Source: a virus
Direction: 5' to 3' (one strand)
DNA: 30,687 bases
IMG/VR virus record: IMGVR_UViG_3300037189_004311
Location: 1-30,687 of that record
The notes beneath the pieces were generated by a model. That model saw only the letters and a list, made by a program, of their open reading frames with translations. It did not search any database and had not been told where the DNA came from. The position numbers and the translations under genes were made by a program. This document shows, in pieces, positions 4,500-26,675 of the stretch. Each line of letters opens with the position of its first letter. The stretch's first letter is position 1.

Positions 4500-4772
4500 T
4501 TAAAATAATTGATATTTATAAACGGGAGAGATCAGTTTCCCTGTGATCTTGCATTTTCTTTTATCGCCTTCCTTTAGCATCCCAACTTCAAGCATTTCAT
4601 TTACTCTGCCACACACAGAGGAAAGTTCCATGCCTGTTGATCTGGCTAGTTCTTTGCGTGAATATTCAATTCCAAAGTCCATGTAATCAAACAATGCTTG
4701 CGCTTGTTTACCAACCTTGCCTAATGCTTTGTGTTCTTTGTAAGCAATAATAGATGTGTCTGCTACTGTCAC
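4500..4772 (-). CDS. Winged-helix DNA-binding protein
   Basis: A 90-residue protein starting at GTG (GTGA overlap with the upstream stop; strong GGAGG eight to nine bases before it). GKVGKQAQALFDYM and YSRKELARSTGMELSSVCGRVNEML read as helix, helix, recognition helix, followed by a two-strand wing (MLKEGDKRKCKITGKLISPVYKY). This resembles MarR/ArsR-like single wHTH phage proteins used in replication or transcription control. The partner DNA is unknown. Co-operonic with the recombination genes. Confidence 0.65.
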   Translation of the reverse strand: MTVADTSIIAYKEHKALGKVGKQAQALFDYMDFGIEYSRKELARSTGMELSSVCGRVNEMLEVGMLKEGDKRKCKITGKLISPVYKYQLF

Positions 4773-5086
4773 GATATATCCTCCACTCTCATAACGTATC
4801 TGCCTTTAGTATTTTTGCGCCAACCATGCACTTCTATTCGTATTCCGGCATCCCTGACTAGCGCAACCGTAGATGATTCTTGAATCTTTTTAATGCGGTC
4901 TGCAACGGCAGAGGCGGTGACTTGTACAGCCAACACCTCGCCTTTTCTAATAGCTAAAATGTCGCACCAGTTCCAAAGGTCTTTCCTTTGCTTAGTGAAA
5001 GCATTCCACTTTTCCACCACCTCACAATGGTATCCCTGCTCTCGTAGATAGGCTAAAGACCTTTGTGTGGGGCTAACTTTTGCCAT
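4769..5086 (-). CDS. PD-(D/E)XK-fold nuclease-like protein (resolvase-like)
   Basis: A 105-residue protein with KDLWNWCDILAIRKGEVLAVQVTA (35-58). The acid D42 followed after about a dozen residues by a beta strand ending QVT matches the core of small PD-(D/E)XK proteins such as Holliday-junction-resolvase-like and VRR-NUC-like families. The usual E-x-K is QVT here, with Q55 replacing the second acid and no lysine at the end. Activity is therefore uncertain: it may be a variant active site, as seen in some Q-containing families, or a DNA-binding relic. It is coupled to the SSB-like gene (TAATG) and to the winged-helix gene. Confidence 0.65.
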   Translation of the reverse strand: MAKVSPTQRSLAYLREQGYHCEVVEKWNAFTKQRKDLWNWCDILAIRKGEVLAVQVTASAVADRIKKIQESSTVALVRDAGIRIEVHGWRKNTKGRYVMRVEDIS

Positions 5087-7552: not shown

Positions 7553-7793
7553 GCATAGCCTCCTCCATTTCTGCGGCACGTTTGACACGTTCGGCATGGG
7601 CATCACTAGCATGAACGAAATGGGCAGCTTCCCTGCCACAAAGGTCTGGATCACCTCGCATGGTCATGGCATACATGAAACGGGTAGAGCCGTGAACTGG
7701 TTCGATATAAGCGGATAGCTTATGTAGGCACTTGTCGGGGGTGTCGAAAAACTGACAATCGACACATAGTTTTAGGTCTTTTAGATAGGTCAT
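7536..7793 (-). CDS. Small cysteine-containing protein, probable zinc-binding
   Basis: An 85-residue protein with CVDCQFF (10-16), a further C and H in KCLHKL (21-26), and PDLCGREAAHF near residue 50. The C-x-x-C ... C-x-H ... C-G pattern is typical of small phage zinc-ribbon-like proteins; the family is widespread in phages and unnamed. The start follows GGGAGATTAGCA, close to the leader repeated in this early region. It is the first gene to the left of the origin-like region, with a possible promoter at 7842..7870. Confidence 0.7.
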   Translation of the reverse strand: MTYLKDLKLCVDCQFFDTPDKCLHKLSAYIEPVHGSTRFMYAMTMRGDPDLCGREAAHFVHASDAHAERVKRAAEMEEAMRDSPL

Positions 7794-7831
7794 TGCTAAT
7801 CTCCCTGTTGGGTCTTATCTGTTCGGAATTG

Positions 7832-7846
7832 AACATTACAGATGTT
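7832..7846. promoter_or_regulatory. Operator-like palindrome AACAT-N5-ATGTT
   Basis: Perfect 5-bp arms around a TACAG spacer, overlapping the -10 box of the possible leftward promoter. The size and place fit a dimeric HTH repressor site. The chance of such a short palindrome is not negligible. Confidence 0.3.
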
Positions 7847-7870
7847 ACTCGAAAACAATCTAGTTTCCAA
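7842..7870 (-). promoter_or_regulatory. Possible leftward promoter for the recombination operon
   Basis: On the minus strand TTGGAA (-35, four of six) and TAACAT (-10, four of six) are separated by 17 bases, about 49 bases before the start of 7536..7793. Both boxes are imperfect. A promoter here is expected because a terminator at 8273..8304 lies upstream on the same strand. Inference from sequence pattern only. Confidence 0.35.
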
Positions 7871-7917
7871 TGGATAATTACTATTACTTTTTGCTAACCT
7901 ATTAGGATAAACCTATC

Positions 7918-7960
7918 TGTGGATAAACCTGTGGATAACTTGTGAATAACCTGTGGATAG
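7918..7960. promoter_or_regulatory. Four tandem DnaA-box-like sites
   Basis: Four 9-mers of the TGTGRATAR type in the same orientation with start-to-start spacing 12, 11 and 11 bp. Two are perfect complements of TTATCCACA, one matches TTATTCACA, and the last has one mismatch. Four in-phase copies in 43 bases are hard to explain by chance. Confidence 0.65.
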
Positions 7961-8000
7961 ATTTAATGGAATGATTCTTGCAATATATGGAATATAGATA

Positions 8001-8022
8001 ATAGTACTTATACAAGTACTAT
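8001..8022. repeat. Inverted repeat in the AT-rich part of the origin candidate
   Basis: Perfect 9-bp arms ATAGTACTT and AAGTACTAT around a 4-base spacer ATAC. It lies about 40 bases from the last DnaA-like box. It could form a cruciform or bind a dimeric protein. Confidence 0.5.
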
Positions 8023-8083
8023 ACGATAAGATTATATTTCTTAAATATATGAATTTATATAATGCAAAATGCTTAAAAAAAAG

Positions 8084-9785: not shown

Positions 9786-10640
9786 TTAAGCCGCTAAGAG
9801 TTCTTCGGCTTCGGTTACATTGCTTTGCATTAAATAATCTGTTGCGGCTTGTGCTAGTCCTGAGGCTTTGAATATTGCTTTGCTGTCATTCTTTAAGCAT
9901 TTCAACCATGATTGAATATATCCGGCATGACGTAGATCACCTTTGATACCGTGATTCTGGCACATGAAAGCCGCTCCCAATTCAGCGACTAATTCCTCGA
10001 AAGCATAATCAGCGTTGCCGAATCTACCTTTTGAGAGATCACGGTCACAGCGAGATTTTTCGCTAGTCCAGTGAGTGAGTTCATGAAAAGCCGTTGCATA
10101 GTAATGTTCAGGTGATGAGAATGTGCCGAGTTCAGGCATTTTGATGAGATCAACGGAAGGAATAAAACAAGCCGTGTCACCGCCATGAACTATTTTTGCA
10201 CCAGTAGCTGAAATTGTCTTTTCGCAATTATCGATTTTTTGGTGATCTGATACGGTATCGGCACTAGGTACAATATCGATATTGTCTACCTGAGAAACAT
10301 TGAATACAAAGTATGCTTTAGCGAAAGCATAGGATTTTTGCTCGCCCTCTGGATTAACTGATTGTGCCTGATTCCAGTATATGATCTTGGCGGCTTTTTC
10401 ACCCTTGCGAACTTGACCGCCTAAAGAATCCCATTGTTTATATGTAGCCCATACTGGAACGCTATAGCCTTTGATACCTGAGAGCATAGCTAAGAGTAAG
10501 CGATTAATGCCACGGTATGGTTTTTGTGAAATTACATTCTTATCCGCGCCACTAGGTGCATTCCACGGCTTTACCCATGGCGCGCATCCGTTCTCTAGTT
10601 CGGTGATGATTGATTGAGTGATTTCTTCGTATATATTCAT
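9786..10640 (-). CDS. ardC: ArdC-like antirestriction protein with zinc-metallopeptidase domain
   Basis: A 284-residue two-part protein. The N-terminus (1-120; NIYEEITQSIITELENG.APWVKPW, PYRGINRLLL, VWATYKQWDSLGGQVRKGEKA, YFVFNVSQ) is the ArdC N-terminal/DUF1738-type ssDNA-binding domain. The C-terminal part has HELTH (186-190), with zinc ligands H186 and H190 and catalytic E187, and FEELVAELGAAF (214-225) with the third ligand at E216 or E220. ArdC proteins protect incoming DNA from type I or II restriction and bind ssDNA. It is the first gene after the strong early promoter, which fits action at the moment of infection. It uses the GGAGATTAGAAAATG leader. Confidence 0.88.
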   Translation of the reverse strand: MNIYEEITQSIITELENGCAPWVKPWNAPSGADKNVISQKPYRGINRLLLAMLSGIKGYSVPVWATYKQWDSLGGQVRKGEKAAKIIYWNQAQSVNPEGEQKSYAFAKAYFVFNVSQVDNIDIVPSADTVSDHQKIDNCEKTISATGAKIVHGGDTACFIPSVDLIKMPELGTFSSPEHYYATAFHELTHWTSEKSRCDRDLSKGRFGNADYAFEELVAELGAAFMCQNHGIKGDLRHAGYIQSWLKCLKNDSKAIFKASGLAQAATDYLMQSNVTEAEELLAA

Positions 10641-15208: not shown

Positions 15209-15672
15209 TTATGGCGGTATTAAACGATTATAAGTGCGTTAAACACGGATATTTTGAGGCTTACGAGGGTAAATGCCCTATGAAAGGCTGTTCAGAGGAA
15301 GTTCATGTTGTTTTTCTTCAACCTGTTGCTTTTAAGTCAGATACGACTAAACACAACGATAAAACCTTAAATCAGCTTGCTATTGACTTTAATATGACCG
15401 ATATTAAGTCGGCAAAAGAAGATGATAACCAATCTGGTTACTTAACTCGTAATAATGGCGCAGCACCTGCTGAACCTAGACCGGGCGATGCGGTAAAATG
15501 GGGGAATCAAGGAGGCAAGTGGGACTTGGGATCACTTGTTAAGGGGAGAACCTTTGCTCCCGTTCGTGATGAATCCGTTAGTGTCCTGCCTAGTCAAATA
15601 GGAAACTTGACAGCACCCAAGACTGCGAGTTATATAGCGGATCATGAGAACCTACAAGTGAAGCCTGAATAA
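15205..15672 (+). CDS. Zinc-ribbon-containing protein upstream of portal
   Basis: A 155-residue protein. The N-terminus KCVKHGYFEAYEGKCPMKGC has the order C-x-x-H ... C-x4-C of a zinc ribbon, followed by a long, likely flexible region with G, N, P and S. The ribosome site AAGGGG lies close to the first of two possible ATGs (15205 and 15211). The gene ends in TAATG with the portal. Small zinc-ribbon proteins in this place are common in phages of this layout; whether they join the head is not known to me. Confidence 0.7.
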   Translation: MIMAVLNDYKCVKHGYFEAYEGKCPMKGCSEEVHVVFLQPVAFKSDTTKHNDKTLNQLAIDFNMTDIKSAKEDDNQSGYLTRNNGAAPAEPRPGDAVKWGNQGGKWDLGSLVKGRTFAPVRDESVSVLPSQIGNLTAPKTASYIADHENLQVKPE

Positions 15673-17294
15673 TGCGAATTCCGACAAACCCTGTTCATCG
15701 TGAAGAATTCTATTTGGATTTAATTCAAAAGTGTTTTGTTTCGCGTGAAGAAAGAATCGCAGACTATTCCGCTTTACGTAGCTACTATTTATTTGGAGCA
15801 TCACCGGAAGAACCACCGGCATTGTTTAATAAAATTTTTCCGCACGTTGACCAATTAACTTCATTTCTTTATTCGGCAGAAACAACCAGATTCACAATTA
15901 GTCTTGGTGCTGAAGTCAATCCAATGGAACAACGTAAAGTTCCAATACTGACAGACAAGATAAATGATGAGTGGTTAAACTCAAACGCAGACCAAGTATT
16001 TTCTACTGCCTTAACTTGGGCGTTGTGTTATTCAAGTACGTTCTTAAAATTAGTTGTCAACAAAGGGATTCATCCCTACATGGTTGAACCGGCTGCGATG
16101 GGAGTATTAAGAGAAGATTCTCCTTACACAGATAGACAAGAAGCATTAGTCCAAACGTACTACATTACTAAGTCAGAATTATATTCACGGCTTTACTCTC
16201 ACCCAAAGCGCGAAGAAATTATTAAGCGTGTCACTTCAAGTTACAAACCTCAACAAGTAGAAGTTCCTGAAGGTATTGATCGTATCATCATGTCGCAATC
16301 AAACCCGACAATGGTAGGTACAGTTAATCTTGATTTGTCCGGCATGAACAGATACAAAGCTCGTGTTGCAGAAGATACGATTGAGATGCGTGAGTTGTGG
16401 GTATGGAATGACGAAACGATGGATTATCAGGTTGTTACTATTGCTGAACCTGACGTTATTATTTACGACCGTAGTGGCGAATCAGTATTTTTGAAAGGCG
16501 AATTGCCTTTTGTTCAGCTTTGCCCTAACCCAATGTACGACTACTATTGGGGTCAATCGGAAGTACAGCGTTTAGTTTTCTTGCAATCCCTGCGTAATAA
16601 ACGCATGACAGAAATTTTAGATTTATTGTCTAAACAAACATCCCCGCCAACGGCATTAATTGGTTTTGCGGGTATCTTAGACGAAAAGAATTTTGCTTTA
16701 AATCGCTCTGGCGGTGTGTTGGCAACTGATATGCCTAACGCAAAAGTGGAAAAACTTGCTCCACAAATGCCTGGTGATCTATTTGAAGTTATTCATGAAG
16801 TAGATGCAATGTTTGCAGAAGCCTCTGGTATTACTTCTGTATTGTCCGGTAGGGGCGAAACAGGGGTAAGAAGTCAGGGTCATGCCTCTCAATTGGCACG
16901 TTTAGGTTCATCAAGAGCCAAAAAACGGGCGTTAATCATTGAGGATTCGCTTGAAAAGGTCGCAACATTGTATTTAAAGATCATTCAAGAGTACGACAAA
17001 GAGAAATTGATGGATACAGAGAATGTTGCTTTCATTCCAGAGCAATTTACTAAAAACTTTGTCGTTAAAGTAGATGCACACAGTAATTCGCCAATATTTA
17101 CGGAAGATACCCGTCAAATGGCATTCAATTTGTTTAAATCGGGCGCAATCGACAAAGAATCTTTACTTGACTTGTTAGAGCCTCCAATGAAACAATTATT
17201 AAAAGAGAAATTGAAAAAGCGTGAGAAAGAACAGGGAAAGCAGCCTCCAAAAGAGGGAAAGAAACCTGATGTTAAAGCAGAGGAGAAGAAATAA
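15672..17294 (+). CDS. Portal protein (head-tail connector)
   Basis: A 540-residue protein starting in a TAATG overlap. Typical portal signs are FNKIFPHVDQLTSFLYSA near residue 52, a long central region with PFVQLCPNPMYDYYWGQSEVQRLVFLQSLRNKRMTEI, the ASGITSVLSGRGETGVRSQGHASQLARLGSSRAKKRALIIEDSLEKVA segment forming the clip and stem helices, and a highly charged C-terminal tail (KLKKREKEQGKQPPKEGKK). The portal forms the dodecameric ring through which DNA is packaged and ejected, and docks the terminase. Position after terminase and before capsid genes agrees. Confidence 0.88.
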   Translation: MRIPTNPVHREEFYLDLIQKCFVSREERIADYSALRSYYLFGASPEEPPALFNKIFPHVDQLTSFLYSAETTRFTISLGAEVNPMEQRKVPILTDKINDEWLNSNADQVFSTALTWALCYSSTFLKLVVNKGIHPYMVEPAAMGVLREDSPYTDRQEALVQTYYITKSELYSRLYSHPKREEIIKRVTSSYKPQQVEVPEGIDRIIMSQSNPTMVGTVNLDLSGMNRYKARVAEDTIEMRELWVWNDETMDYQVVTIAEPDVIIYDRSGESVFLKGELPFVQLCPNPMYDYYWGQSEVQRLVFLQSLRNKRMTEILDLLSKQTSPPTALIGFAGILDEKNFALNRSGGVLATDMPNAKVEKLAPQMPGDLFEVIHEVDAMFAEASGITSVLSGRGETGVRSQGHASQLARLGSSRAKKRALIIEDSLEKVATLYLKIIQEYDKEKLMDTENVAFIPEQFTKNFVVKVDAHSNSPIFTEDTRQMAFNLFKSGAIDKESLLDLLEPPMKQLLKEKLKKREKEQGKQPPKEGKKPDVKAEEKK

Positions 17295-17461
17295 TGGCGA
17301 GAGCAAATAAATCACCTAAATCAGACCAACCTCTTGCAAACACAAAAGACGCAAGACAGGCAATGCCAAAAGAACCAAGTTTGCAGTACAGGGTGCAAGG
17401 CATACAAAGTTATGGTCGCGCACCATCATCAAGAGGTATGAGCAGGGCGGCAAGGGGATAA
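17294..17461 (+). CDS. Small basic protein after portal (55 residues)
   Basis: A 55-residue basic protein, MARANKSPKSDQPLANTKDA then RQAMPKEPSLQYRVQGIQSY and a G/R-rich end (GRAPSSRGMSRAARG). It shares a TAATG with the portal stop, so translation is coupled. Low complexity and charge suggest a disordered, nucleic-acid-contacting or capsid-internal peptide. Not recognised. It is followed by two still shorter basic peptides. Confidence 0.6.
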   Translation: MARANKSPKSDQPLANTKDARQAMPKEPSLQYRVQGIQSYGRAPSSRGMSRAARG

Positions 17462-17478
17462 TTACTTAGGAGTAAATT

Positions 17479-17520
17479 ATGTACAAGAAAATGAAGCGTG
17501 GTCGCAAGACTAAGCGTTAA
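17479..17520 (+). CDS. 13-residue highly basic peptide
   Basis: Encodes MYKKMKRGRKTKR with eight K or R in 13 residues. AGGAG lies exactly six bases before the ATG, a near-optimal site, so ribosomes are very likely to start here. After the TAA the same frame continues as another basic stretch, SVPVKRKKGCSALPMK, before the next stop. It lies in the head-gene region, and a related peptide follows. A DNA-contacting role like that of small packaging peptides is a guess. Confidence 0.5.
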   Translation: MYKKMKRGRKTKR

Positions 17521-17598
17521 TCAGTTCCCGTAAAACGGAAAAAGGGGTGTTCTGCTCTCCCTATGAAATGAGTAGTTAAACGCAAAAGGAGAAATACC

Positions 17599-17643
17599 AT
17601 GCGTGGTCGCAAAAAAGGTGCTCGTAAGGGCAAGCGTAAGTAA
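17599..17643 (+). CDS. 14-residue highly basic peptide
   Basis: Encodes MRGRKKGARKGKRK with nine K or R in 14 residues. It has an AAGGAG site at good spacing, and MRGRKKG resembles MKRGRKTKR in the preceding peptide, so the two look like relatives. The stop codon is part of a perfect hairpin (17641..17656), so translation and RNA structure may interact. Confidence 0.5.
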   Translation: MRGRKKGARKGKRK

Positions 17644-17691
17644 TCCTTAGGGATTATCCCTGGGGGCGGGGAAAAAAAATATACGCCCCCA
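17641..17691 (+). promoter_or_regulatory. Two hairpins after the basic peptides
   Basis: The first hairpin is TAATCC (17641..17646) with GGATTA (17651..17656) around TTAG. The second is TGGGGGCG (17661..17668) with CGCCCCCA (17684..17691) around a 15-base loop that contains eight A. There is no U run after the second stem, so it is not a typical terminator; RNA stabilisation or processing at the border between portal and capsid genes is possible. Confidence 0.4.
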
Positions 17692-17695
17692 CCTA

Positions 17696-17724
17696 TTGAC
17701 AAAATTTATAGTTGCGGTTATTTG
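17696..17724 (+). promoter_or_regulatory. Possible promoter before the capsid genes
   Basis: A perfect TTGACA (17696..17701) with a weak TATTTG (17719..17724) at 17 bases, located 26 bases before the next gene and directly after the hairpins. The -10 match is poor. Confidence 0.35.
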
Positions 17725-22074: not shown

Positions 22075-24084
22075 ATGGCATCACCAGAACAAAAGAAAAG
22101 TTATCAGGTTGTCAAACAGTTCAAGGGTTTAAATACCAAAGCGAACCGTACTGCTATTGAGGAATCGGAATTTTCATGGCTAGAAAACGCCATGCCGATT
22201 GGTTACGCAAACATAAAGATTACTCCAACATCTTCCCAAGTTTATAACGCTAGTAATGTAGCTGTTACTTTTGCAAATACTCCATCACACATGGCTTCAG
22301 TCAACTTGAATAATGTTGACTACATTATGGTGTTTCAAGCAGACGGGAGTTTAGATGCTTTTAATCTTGTTACAAATTTAAAATCAACAATAAAGACTGC
22401 GGGATTTTTTTCTGCTTCAGGAATTTCTGTTACGCAATGGAAAAATGAACTTGCGCTGATTCTTGATCCGGTTAAAGGTTATTTTGTTTGGGATGGAATA
22501 AATGTTATTTCTGTTGGCTCTGTCGGTGTAATTGGTATTAGAACAGGTGGCGCAGGTTATACCTCTACTCCGCTTGTAACAATTAGTGCGCCTAATGATG
22601 CAAATGGTATTCGTGCTACTGCGGTAGCTTCTGTTACGGCTAATGCTGTTACAGCAATTACGGTCACAAATCCTGGCTCTGGATACACAGTTGCTCCTAC
22701 TGTTACGGTAACTGGCGGTGGAGCCTCCACTCAAGCTAATGCAGTAGCTAGTATTGTTTCTTTTGCTACAGGAACAATTTATCTAAACCTTTTAACTGGC
22801 GGTACAGGATACATAAACGTATCTAACATTACCGTAACTATTGCAGGTGGTGGTGGTGCTAATGCGGCAGCTACTGCGCTTCTTTCTGGTACTCAAGTAT
22901 CCAGATTGATTATGACGAATGTAGGAAGCGGATATACCAATGTTTCTAATTTAACAGTCACTATTACTGGCGGTGGCGCAACTACAAACGCAACTGCAAA
23001 TGCCGTTATTAATAGCGCACAAAACGTAGATATTGCATCTTTTTCTGGTCGTACATGGATTGCTTACGGTAGAACAGTTACTTATAGTGCGGCAGGTACT
23101 TATAATGATTTTACGTCTGTATCTGCGGGTTCCGTAGCCTTAACAGATAGTACGTTGCATGGCGATATTCAAAAATTATTATCGGCAAATAACTTCTTAT
23201 ATTTATATGGCGATGACAGTATTAACGTATTTTCTGACGTTCGTGTAACTACAGCCGGTACGACTATTTTCACCAATACAAACATTAGTGCGTCTGTAGG
23301 ATCAAAAAGAAAAAATGCAATTTTCCCGTATTTCAGATCAGTTTTATTTTTAAACGATTACGGTATCTATGCGCTTGTAGGTTCTACAACATCTAAAGTT
23401 TCAGATGCTCTTGACGGCATTTTTGCAAACATTGATTTCACGTATCCGATTTATTGCGGAGAAGTTTTATTAAATAATATTCTTTGCGCTGCATTTAATT
23501 TTAGATATTACGATGCAGAATTTAGCGGTGGATACAGATACATTCAGGCAATATTTTTTGATAAGAAATGGTTTTTTACAAGTTCTCAAAACACGATGCA
23601 ATACATTGTTTCTGTTCCATTAGAAGGAACATTAACTTTGTATGGTGTTGCTAATCCTAATGGTGTATGGAATTTATACGAATTATATTCAAGCACAACA
23701 TTGCCAGTTAATTCTATTATTCAATCAGCATTAGATTCAATGGGTGATCCAATTAGAGATAAACAAGCATTAAAAATAGGTATTGAATCTACATCAACAG
23801 GAACTAGTATTGCAACTTTTGTAGCCACAGTAGATTCAGAAAAACAATCAAGTCCAGACATCACATTATCTTCTGGAGTTATTTGGCAAAATAATAATTT
23901 TGAAACTTGCGTATGGGAAAACAATACTAATCAAATTGTAGAGTGGGGATCAGTTGGTTATAACTTGTATAAATCAGACGCACAACAATGGGGCAAATAT
24001 CTTGGAATGACGATAAGGTCGTCAACTCCAGGATTTTTTATTAACGGATTGCAGTATGAACATGAATTAAGAGCGAGATTCTAA
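22075..24084 (+). CDS. Tail nozzle protein (gp12/gp10-like) with four inserted GSGYT-type repeats
   Basis: A 669-residue beta-rich protein directly after the adaptor, starting [34 protein letters not shown], the usual start of podovirus nozzle / stabilisation proteins. Residues about 154-310 hold four repeats with GG.GY.s.P or GSGY...VTxTGGG patterns (158-170, 201-216, 242-260, 284-301). The rest is propeller-like beta structure ([36 protein letters not shown]). The nozzle extends the channel and often carries fibres; the inserted repeats could be an adhesive side domain. TAATG overlap to the fibre. Confidence 0.75.
22534..23004 (+). repeat. Four internal GSGYT-type protein repeats in the nozzle
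   Basis: The repeats share GxGY followed by P/S, a VT strand and (in most) a GGG turn. They are 41-43 residues apart, except that the second to third is about 41 with a divergent linker. Such repeats are common in phage and bacterial surface proteins. Confidence 0.6.
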
Positions 24085-26675
24085 TGGCTAAACCAGTTAC
24101 CCTACCTAATACATTTGGTACGCAAGGGGGAACAATTCCCTTAAATTACTTAGATCAAGATTTTACTGCTGTAACGAATTCACTTAATGATCTTGCAACG
24201 TACAGTAATTATGCGGTTGATAGCGGTTCCGTAAACAATTTTATTGCAAACTTTTCTACTGGAATAGTTACTAGCACATTAACTTCTGGCTTGCGTCTGC
24301 AATTTAAAGCAGCAAATGCAAATACTGGTGCTTCTACACTTCAGGTTCAAGTTAATACTGTATCTATTGGTACTGCTTCTATTAGATTAACAGACGGTTC
24401 TGTTTTATCTGCTAATGCTATTACTGCGGGTGCGGTAGTAGATGTTTTGTATGATGGAACAAACTTTCAATTATTGAATGATTCTGGTGGTGGTTCCGGT
24501 ACTTTTACTGATTTAACAGTTACAGGAAATCTTGCTGTTATAGGAACAAGTACATTTACAGGTAATGTAACTGCTAACATTGCTAATGTAACTACATTGA
24601 GAGTAACAACAGCAAATATTTCTACTGCAAATGTAACAACAATTATTGCTACAACCGCAAACGTAACAACGGCAAATGTAACTACAGTAATAGCTACAAC
24701 TGCTAACTTAACTAATGCAACTATAACTACAGCTAATGTAACAACAATAAATGGAAATGTTGCTACATTTACTGGAAACGTCACCATTCAAGGCAATGGA
24801 AGTAATGTTCAAGGAAACTTGACACTTGGTAATGTCACAATATTAGGCACAGCTAATCTTGCCGGAAATATTTCTAGTGGAAATCTTTCTGTTACTTCTT
24901 TAACTAGCACCGGAAATATATCTATTACTGGTAGCGGTATATTTAAAGCAGGTAATGTAAGTTATTCTGATACTGGTGTTGTTGCTTCATTCCAAAGCAA
25001 TGTTGCAGGTTACAACCAAATAATTTTACAGAATACTTCTGCTGCTGCAAACGCATCTACAAATTTTAACATTTCAAACAATTCTGGAACTGCTACTACA
25101 AATTTTGGTGAGATCGGAATTAATAGTTCTGCGTTTACAGGAACAGGATCATTTTCTACTCCTAATAATGTATATCTTGCTTCTGCTTCTACAGATTTAG
25201 TTATTGGTACTTACGCAGCAAATTCAGTTAGATTTGTTGTTAATAGCGGTGCTACTGACGCTATGCAAATTGGTACTACTGGTCTTGTTGGTATTGGTAC
25301 AACGACACCTGCATCAAAATTAAATCTTGCGGGTGCTTTGTCTTTTGCTCCCTGGACTACTTCTGCTCCTGGATTAAGAATTGATGCAATAACATTTACA
25401 TCAACATCAACATTATCTGGAACTGTTTCTGCTAATAGTATTGCTCAACCTACGTTTGCGGCAACTACTGTGGCTCAAACCATAACTAATGGTGCTACTT
25501 TATACATTGCCGATGCTCCCGCATTAGGAACAAATATAACTGCAATTACAAATAATTATTCTTTGTATATTGCCGGTGGAAATGTTTTTATGGGAGGGTC
25601 GCAATTATCTATAAGAGGTTCTGGTACTACTTATCCTGCTGCTGCTTTTGGAGTGGCTCTTAGTGTTGGCACAGTTGGTTTTTCTGTTGGTCCTGCAACA
25701 TATACTTCAGCAGCAGGAGCATCTGGTACTGTTGCTATTCATGCTTTTAGCACACCAACAATTGCAACAACCACAGCATCACAAACAATTTCAATTGCTG
25801 CTACTTTATATATAGCAAATCCCCCACAAGCAGGAACAAACGTAACTATTACAAACCCATACGGAATATATTGTCTTGCTGACGTTTTAATTGCTGCAAA
25901 CAGATTAAGAATTAGTACATCATCACCGCAAACATTTCCTGCGGGTGATTTTGGAACAACTGGTTATTTGTTTTCTCAAAGTTCAGGAAACATAATAACT
26001 TCTGCTGCCGGATTATCGGGAACAGTTGCCGCAAATAGTTTTTCTCCAGGTAGTATTGCTGCTACAACCGCAAGTCAAACCATAACAAATGCAGTAAATT
26101 TATATGTTGGAGCTGCTCCGTCAGCAAGTACAAATGTAACTATTACTAATAGTTGGTCTTTGTACGTTGCATCAGGAAATTCATATTTTGGAAGCACGTT
26201 AAATATTGGTGGAACAGCCGCCAGAGCGACAACGGCAGGAACTTCTTTACTTAATGTTTTTAACGGAACTGCTCCTGTTGGTACGTTGACTAACGGTGTA
26301 TCCATATACTCTGTGTCTGGCGATTTAAACTTTATGGATGCAGCAGGTAATGCGTTTAAAGTTGGCTATAGAAATGTTCCTCCAGTAGGAACAAAAACCG
26401 GTTCTTATACTTTAGCGACTACTGATGTTGGAGAATATGTTCAGTTAGGAACAGGTGGAGCAATTGTAATTCCTGATGCAACTTTTGCTGAAGGTGACAT
26501 TATTTCTGTATTTAATAATACAACAGGAAGTATCACAATTACTTGTTCAATTACAACGGCATATATTGGTGGCGTTAATACAGATAGAGCCTCAGTTACT
26601 TTAGCAACACGAGGTTTAGCAACAATTTTCTTTATTAGCAGCACAGTCTGCGTAATTAATGGAAATGTATCGTGA
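24084..26675 (+). CDS. Repeat-rich tail fibre
   Basis: An 863-residue protein almost free of charged residues, rich in T, N, S, A and V. The start ([27 protein letters not shown]) is the typical podovirus fibre attachment segment. Residues 168-222 repeat ANVTT (often TTANVTT), and 140-300 is a T/N-rich beta helix. Residues 421-708 are three tandem copies of an about 100-residue unit (SGTVxANS, TTxxQTI, LYIxxAP, NVTITN). The last 95 residues (TGSYTLATTDVGEYV ... FFISSTVCVING) look like the C-terminal knob. It is expected to bind a host surface glycan. Confidence 0.8.
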   Translation: MAKPVTLPNTFGTQGGTIPLNYLDQDFTAVTNSLNDLATYSNYAVDSGSVNNFIANFSTGIVTSTLTSGLRLQFKAANANTGASTLQVQVNTVSIGTASIRLTDGSVLSANAITAGAVVDVLYDGTNFQLLNDSGGGSGTFTDLTVTGNLAVIGTSTFTGNVTANIANVTTLRVTTANISTANVTTIIATTANVTTANVTTVIATTANLTNATITTANVTTINGNVATFTGNVTIQGNGSNVQGNLTLGNVTILGTANLAGNISSGNLSVTSLTSTGNISITGSGIFKAGNVSYSDTGVVASFQSNVAGYNQIILQNTSAAANASTNFNISNNSGTATTNFGEIGINSSAFTGTGSFSTPNNVYLASASTDLVIGTYAANSVRFVVNSGATDAMQIGTTGLVGIGTTTPASKLNLAGALSFAPWTTSAPGLRIDAITFTSTSTLSGTVSANSIAQPTFAATTVAQTITNGATLYIADAPALGTNITAITNNYSLYIAGGNVFMGGSQLSIRGSGTTYPAAAFGVALSVGTVGFSVGPATYTSAAGASGTVAIHAFSTPTIATTTASQTISIAATLYIANPPQAGTNVTITNPYGIYCLADVLIAANRLRISTSSPQTFPAGDFGTTGYLFSQSSGNIITSAAGLSGTVAANSFSPGSIAATTASQTITNAVNLYVGAAPSASTNVTITNSWSLYVASGNSYFGSTLNIGGTAARATTAGTSLLNVFNGTAPVGTLTNGVSIYSVSGDLNFMDAAGNAFKVGYRNVPPVGTKTGSYTLATTDVGEYVQLGTGGAIVIPDATFAEGDIISVFNNTTGSITITCSITTAYIGGVNTDRASVTLATRGLATIFFISSTVCVINGNVS
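24585..24749 (+). repeat. ANVTT short-period repeat in the fibre
   Basis: About 55 residues made of TTANVTT-like units with 5-7 residue spacing (codons GCAAATGTAACAACA and variants). Suggests a regular beta helix and may recombine. Confidence 0.65.
25344..26207 (+). repeat. Three tandem units of about 100 residues in the fibre
   Basis: Aligned anchors are SGTV at residues 445, 547 and 645; Q-T-I at 465, 567 and 665; and an I-T-N near 588 and 687. Distances are 102 and 98 residues. The units differ enough to have diverged some time ago. Confidence 0.65.

Follow-up and report, generated by a model that had tools for sequence, protein, structure and literature searches.

The window (the whole stretch of DNA analysed, 30,687 nucleotides, IMG/VR record IMGVR_UViG_3300037189_004311) belongs to a tailed dsDNA phage with terminase, portal and adaptor genes. 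Its head module is arranged in the order terminase large subunit, SU10-type portal, a small frame U, mini-genes A and B, a gene in scaffold position, major head protein (MCP) and adaptor (Table 1); ORFs of 61 and 176 codons lie between the scaffold-position gene and the MCP gene. The first-pass annotation, made from the letters of the window, had placed two ultra-short genes between portal and capsid, and the gene order bears this out. Both the scaffold-position protein (pI 4.6) and the MCP (pI 4.7) are acidic. Frame U was found to be 35–54% identical across many relatives and is annotated as a 55-codon hypothetical in the environmental genome MW202753.

Table 1. Features of the locus. Positions are those of the window unless another genome is named.
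Feature	Positions	Strand	Remarks
Portal, SU10-type	15672-17294		match to Pfam SU10 model
U	17294-17461	+	basic ORF of 55 codons, pI 11.3; overlaps the portal stop; context only
Shine–Dalgarno site of A	17468-17472	+	AGGAG, 6 nt before ATG; site also present in relatives
Mini-gene A	17479-17520	+	13 codons + TAA; MYKKMKRGRKTKR; from ORF reading, relatives and dN/dS
Small hairpin 3′ of the stop of A	17525-17540	+	UUCC...GGAA; seen in alignment, no statistical support computed
PK1, upstream of B	17543-17575	+	H-type pseudoknot; AGGGG tgtt CUGCUC UCCCU augaaau GAGUAG
Shine–Dalgarno site of B	17587-17591	+	AGGAG, 7 nt before ATG
Mini-gene B	17599-17643	+	14 codons + TAA; MRGRKKGARKGKRK; from ORF reading, relatives and dN/dS
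PK2, after B	17657-17691	+	H-type pseudoknot with A-rich third loop; UCCC UGGGGGCG GGGA aaaaaaauaua CGCCCCCA
TTGACA, −35-like hexamer after PK2	17696-17701	+	TTGACA or TTGACT in 109 of 129 distinct relatives
Scaffold-position gene	starts 17750		so named solely for its position and acidic composition; matched no family
Major head protein (MCP)	starts 19108		
Adaptor, SU10-type	starts 21227		match to Pfam SU10 model
Tail-fibre-like ORF	24084-26675		short TANVTT-type repeats
ArdC-like antirestriction protein	9786-10640	−	zincin-like metallopeptidase domain
A and B in MW202753 (L082)	A 4758-4799; B 4878-4919		antisense-annotated region 4740-5038
A and B in MW202825 (L081)	A 7810-7851; B 7929-7970		antisense-annotated region 7779-8039

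Mini-genes A and B had been described as frames of 13 and 14 codons, each behind AGGAG at good spacing, encoding peptides that are more than half K/R and resemble each other. The frames and spacings were confirmed, as was the composition (K/R at 8 of 13 residues in A and 9 of 14 in B); the relatedness of the two is strongly supported, and they are probably paralogous to each other. On both strands of the window, A and B were the sole ORFs of 8–30 codons with a Shine–Dalgarno (SD) site and at least 40% K/R. Dinucleotide-preserving shuffling of the window (300 shuffles) yielded no ORF of 8–30 codons with an SD site and at least 50% K/R.

Relatives were collected in two ways. A portal search of IMG/VR returned 80 relatives (71–85% identity), and nearly all of those that extended far enough carried two short basic ORFs at similar spacing 3′ of the portal, with MYKKMKRGRKTRR and MARKARKGRKARK as typical peptides, each preceded by an SD site. 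All 2.9 million IMG/VR contigs were also scanned, without regard to context, for a DNA pattern that encodes the last part of B (RKxRKGRKxRK-stop), which matched at least 120 stretches; among the matches listed, 115 of the 116 readable ones were located at the portal–scaffold locus. The sole readable exception among those listed (L117) had no start codon and matched no protein of the window. A GGAG-type SD site was present ahead of B in 128 of 129 distinct relatives.

Among 202 distinct portal-to-scaffold intervals, two K/R-rich mini-ORFs were found in 133, one in 58, three in eight and none in three; thus 199 carried at least one and 141 carried two or three. Shuffled intervals contained at least one in 61 of 4040 cases and two in no case, and a search of the reverse strand of the intervals for K/R-rich mini-ORFs found none. 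Chance ORFs were ruled out by the shuffles of the window and of the intervals. The intervals with three basic mini-ORFs were those of L103, L158, L170, L187, L229, L231, L241 and L276. The three intervals that had none at the thresholds used (L203, L205 and L227) indicate that the mini-genes are not universally essential.

The intervals encode 131 distinct peptides, almost all of 10–15 residues, with a mean K+R content of 58% and hardly any D/E; order and length vary among them, and the charge stays. A lone cysteine near the C terminus (SCR, GCR, TCR or GCK) was noted in 29 of the 131, in both A- and B-types, and L158 carries a 22-residue version, MARRGRKAHKGHKARKGRKARK, which suggests growth by internal repeat. 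Mini-ORFs were still present at 51% portal identity (L204) and at 38–40% (L280, L282 and L283); the peptides of the deepest clade are MARKHKRAKRK with MARHMRRSRRK and MARKSRRHKRK with MARRMRRHKRK. On the portal tree they occurred in every deep branch, their number having changed separately many times. They always lie directly after the portal gene and, except in the clade of L204, ahead of the scaffold-position gene; in that clade B is still immediately 3′ of the portal, the genes downstream differ and the scaffold gene has moved away.

As far as was searched, the family is confined to uncultured phages from water that form one large group with SU10-type portal and adaptor. The named-phage collection contained only two relatives, the environmental GenBank genomes MW202753 and MW202825. 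No comparable mini-ORF was found in the examined parts of SU10, phiEco32, Mx9, BUCT555, Mwe-JY13, a TM7 phage and a Hydrogenobaculum phage; these contained a few weakly basic GTG/ATG frames, located elsewhere and resembling neither A nor B. The SU10-type (Kuravirus) head module is close in its portal and adaptor, the window's genes matching the SU10 Pfam models; SU10 and phiEco32 differ in having a 78-residue protein and no basic mini-ORF between portal and scaffold. Six contigs of the group were found in metagenome-assembled genomes (MAGs) of unrelated phyla, the labels of L200–L205 being Legionella, beta-proteobacterium, Balneolaceae, Saccharibacteria and Alphaproteobacteria. This spread is most likely due to mis-binned phage DNA, and hence no host is claimed. 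In the passages of the literature consulted, no support was found for Limnohabitans phages as possible relatives.

Selection was estimated on all two-peptide intervals: ORFs of equal length were joined in minimum spanning trees, along which changes were counted. By these simple counts, which are uncorrected for multiple hits, dN/dS was 0.24–0.50 for A and 0.20–0.25 for B in frame and 1.3–4.6 in the two other frames, a large contrast that shows the amino acids to be under purifying selection. A value of 0.145 obtained for A from a regex-chosen subset was biased by the choice of pattern and was not used. Synonymous codons are exchanged freely (arginine is encoded by all six codons and lysine by both), and indels between relatives are whole codons. 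When relatives were compared for loss of start codons or frames, as the first-pass annotation had proposed, starts, stops, frame, SD sites and charge were found to be kept, with variation mainly at third codon positions, an outcome that favours the genes.

Mini-gene B is flanked by two conserved RNA pseudoknots, neither of which had been noticed in the first-pass annotation and neither of which is included in Rfam. For the upstream one, PK1, fold detection alone gave moderate support (mean score 29.0 versus 22.7 for shuffled sequences, with 63% of 70 sequences exceeding the 95th percentile). For covariation, 98 distinct sequences were anchored on the conserved GGCU strand, and the partners were re-dealt as a control; 97 double-change cells were counted versus 31 ± 4 in the shuffled sets, a count in which relatedness is not removed, and 97 was reached in none of 1000 shuffles. 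In the second stem, a two-pair motif was seen to switch as a unit, UG/GU versus UU/UC. The 3′ end of PK1 lies 18–23 nt ahead of the start codon of B in most phages, which is about where an initiating 30S subunit would have its trailing edge. A is often absent while PK1 and B remain, L070 lacks both PK1 and B, and L205 lacks A, PK1 and B; from this joint presence and absence, PK1 belongs to B in the main clade. PK1 was not seen in L280 and L282, though the peptides are there.

The downstream pseudoknot, PK2, scored 30.7 on average versus 16.5 for shuffled sequences, the 95th percentile of the shuffles being exceeded in 93% of 61 distinct sequences, and whole stems are replaced with compensation among relatives. 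It was also found in L070, L263, L267, L269, L272 and L276 and was not seen in L205, L206, L219, L250, L280 and L282. L203 and L204 have hairpins and a T run near its place, resembling an intrinsic terminator; PK2 may be an unusual 3′-end element. For the TTGACA hexamer that follows, no clear −10 was found in the window. In several relatives the hexamer is followed by an inverted repeat, GTTTGTAA...TTACAAAC, which is operator- or hairpin-like.

That the locus holds no genes, only a conserved structured RNA or chance ORFs, is extremely improbable. Conserved RNA structure does exist in the region, and the window gave a single weak Rfam match to the preQ1-II riboswitch; against this stand codon-level selection in the coding frame only, length changes by whole codons, the SD sites and deep conservation of the peptides where the RNA is missing. 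Constraint on RNA alone was ruled out by the codon statistics and by the clades without structures. The riboswitch itself (RF01054, in the gap between A and B) was rejected, its score being 24.8 bits versus a cut-off of 47 in the window, with no match in 14 relatives. A single protein made from A and B by programmed hopping or fusion is unlikely, because each has its own SD site and ATG start codon and can be absent without the other. A and B are thus almost certainly real peptide genes and are predicted to be translated separately. Since the peptides persist at 38–40% portal identity without the pseudoknots, the peptide and not the RNA is the conserved entity; only some of the phages in the group have the pseudoknots.

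Bacterial leader peptides and phage minigenes are similarly short ORFs with SD sites in structured mRNA. A reading along these lines, in which the act of translation matters (by stalling, coupling or unfolding of PK1) and the free peptide does not, would suit the position of A just 5′ of PK1 and B and the two structured elements nearby. It is very improbable, as PK1 and B are kept where A is missing, the peptides outlast the structures and, in many phages, B is followed by the promoter-like TTGACA and by no coupled gene. In leader peptides the codons that are read or that stall matter, whereas here synonymous change is free and the amino acids are kept; leader or attenuator ORFs are conserved with the element that they regulate and depend on their codons, and A and B do neither.

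The RNA elements also raise the reading that either peptide would bind PK1 or PK2 in its own mRNA and so set translation of the operon or stability of the message. Arginine-rich-motif RNA-binding peptides of the lambda N type have active segments of about 12–20 basic residues; the short basic stretch is alike and conserved RNA structures adjoin the gene here, but those segments are parts of larger regulators, whereas here 10–15 codons make up the whole gene, and in evolution the peptide persists where the RNA structures are gone. Autoregulation would fit with the near-constant distance at which PK1 accompanies B ahead of its start and with the covariation in both pseudoknots. It is improbable nonetheless, given that the peptides occur without either pseudoknot in L280 and L282, PK1 without A, and PK2 without B (L070).

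The products of A and B would be free polycations with a net charge of about +8, repeats of R/K with small residues and no hydrophobic core. Peptides of 13 residues with 60% K/R should not fold alone, which suggests that they act through their charge, on acidic surfaces or on nucleic acid. The 131 variants keep high K/R and few D/E while varying in order and length, as expected if charge matters. The position in the head module, the acidic scaffold-position protein and MCP, and the analogy with the microvirus J/VP8 proteins together make nucleic-acid handling the best single guess: tentatively, the peptides may bind nucleic acid and act in head assembly as accessory polycations. We infer that, while the prohead is built and filled, their binding partner could be nucleic acid, alone or along with acidic head proteins, and that they could serve as neutralising accessory factors in the manner of J/VP8. 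The role suggested in the first-pass annotation, as DNA-condensing or capsid-internal peptides, is compatible with the observations. Several points count against such a role: three intervals lack the mini-ORFs, the peptides have no acidic or aromatic capsid anchor such as that of J/VP8, and SU10, phiEco32, Mx9 and BUCT555 package without mini-ORFs in their examined parts. PK1 probably tunes the translation of B in the main clade, because it goes with B and ends 18–23 nt before the start in most phages.

The same acidic partners would serve if the peptides bridged scaffold, MCP and portal without working through nucleic acid. This is unlikely, since apart from charge the peptide sequence is loose, and the clade of L204 keeps B although its scaffold gene is gone elsewhere; the constant location between portal and scaffold-position gene speaks for such bridging, and the C-terminal cysteine of 29 of the 131 variants could be a contact. 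Small phage proteins frequently act on the host (review PMC11323111), and A and B might bind host nucleic acid, ribosomes or membranes, their placement in the head operon being due to chance. This also has a low probability, as linkage to the portal is strict across deep divergence. Host-directed phage genes usually move freely and are located in early regions. Bridging of head proteins, RNA feedback, action on the host and a leader-type role share most of the probability that remains beside nucleic-acid handling. Doubtful, though possible, is a wider form of the nucleic-acid reading, in which one to three free polycations of 10–15 residues make up an undescribed class of assembly or virion factors, with PK1 at the ribosome edge setting the output of B in the main clade; perhaps B would bind PK1 RNA as feedback once the DNA to be bound is gone.

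The closest known proteins in kind are J/VP8 of microviruses (phiX174 J, SpV4 VP8), short, R/K-rich, DNA-binding virion proteins that lie inside the capsid and guide DNA packaging (PMC11281519). They share with the present family a very short, R/K-rich chain, a pI near 12–13 and a gene beside those of the capsid. They are longer, SpV4 VP8 being built to residue 38 (PMC11281519) versus 10–15 residues in total here, and their C terminus is buried in a hydrophobic pocket of the capsid (PMC11281519), whereas nearly all variants here stay K/R-rich right up to their end; J/VP8 is one gene of an ssDNA virus, and here one to three genes are carried by a dsDNA tailed phage. Homology to J/VP8 was not found and none is claimed, kinship being unsupported; as two defining features of J/VP8 are lacking, the peptides are not assigned to that family, although their mode of action may be similar. 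Baculovirus P6.9 and ascovirus P64 are protamine-like cationic proteins that condense dsDNA for encapsidation (PMC12159748, PMC6163548); they are far longer, belong to eukaryotic viruses and have had condensation shown experimentally, whereas here it is suggested by composition only.

Neither the family nor its locus and RNA elements were found described in the literature and libraries searched. A and B thus represent a new family of ultra-short genes. If the guess at function is right, its functional kind is broadly known; if not, the family stands further from known systems. In bacterial viruses, conservation at the peptide level has rarely been shown for genes of 10–15 codons. With 131 natural variants and a built-in RNA element, the need for charge versus sequence is directly testable, and the locus likewise opens to test whether motor-driven packaging needs polycations and how the translation of ultra-short genes is controlled.

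That such genes are missed by usual gene finders, as had been predicted, is strongly supported: A and B are not listed in any annotation, which is due to their length. The default floor of PHANOTATE is 90 nt (PMC6853651). In MW202753 and MW202825, antisense hypothetical ORFs are annotated exactly over A and B, probably in error. The peptides would probably not survive tryptic proteomics, since trypsin cuts after most of their residues; with gene callers omitting them as well, a layer of head-module components may be overlooked. Some of the peptides may sit unnamed in smORF catalogues such as GMSC, in which ORFs are called from 30 nt upward (PMC11364881).
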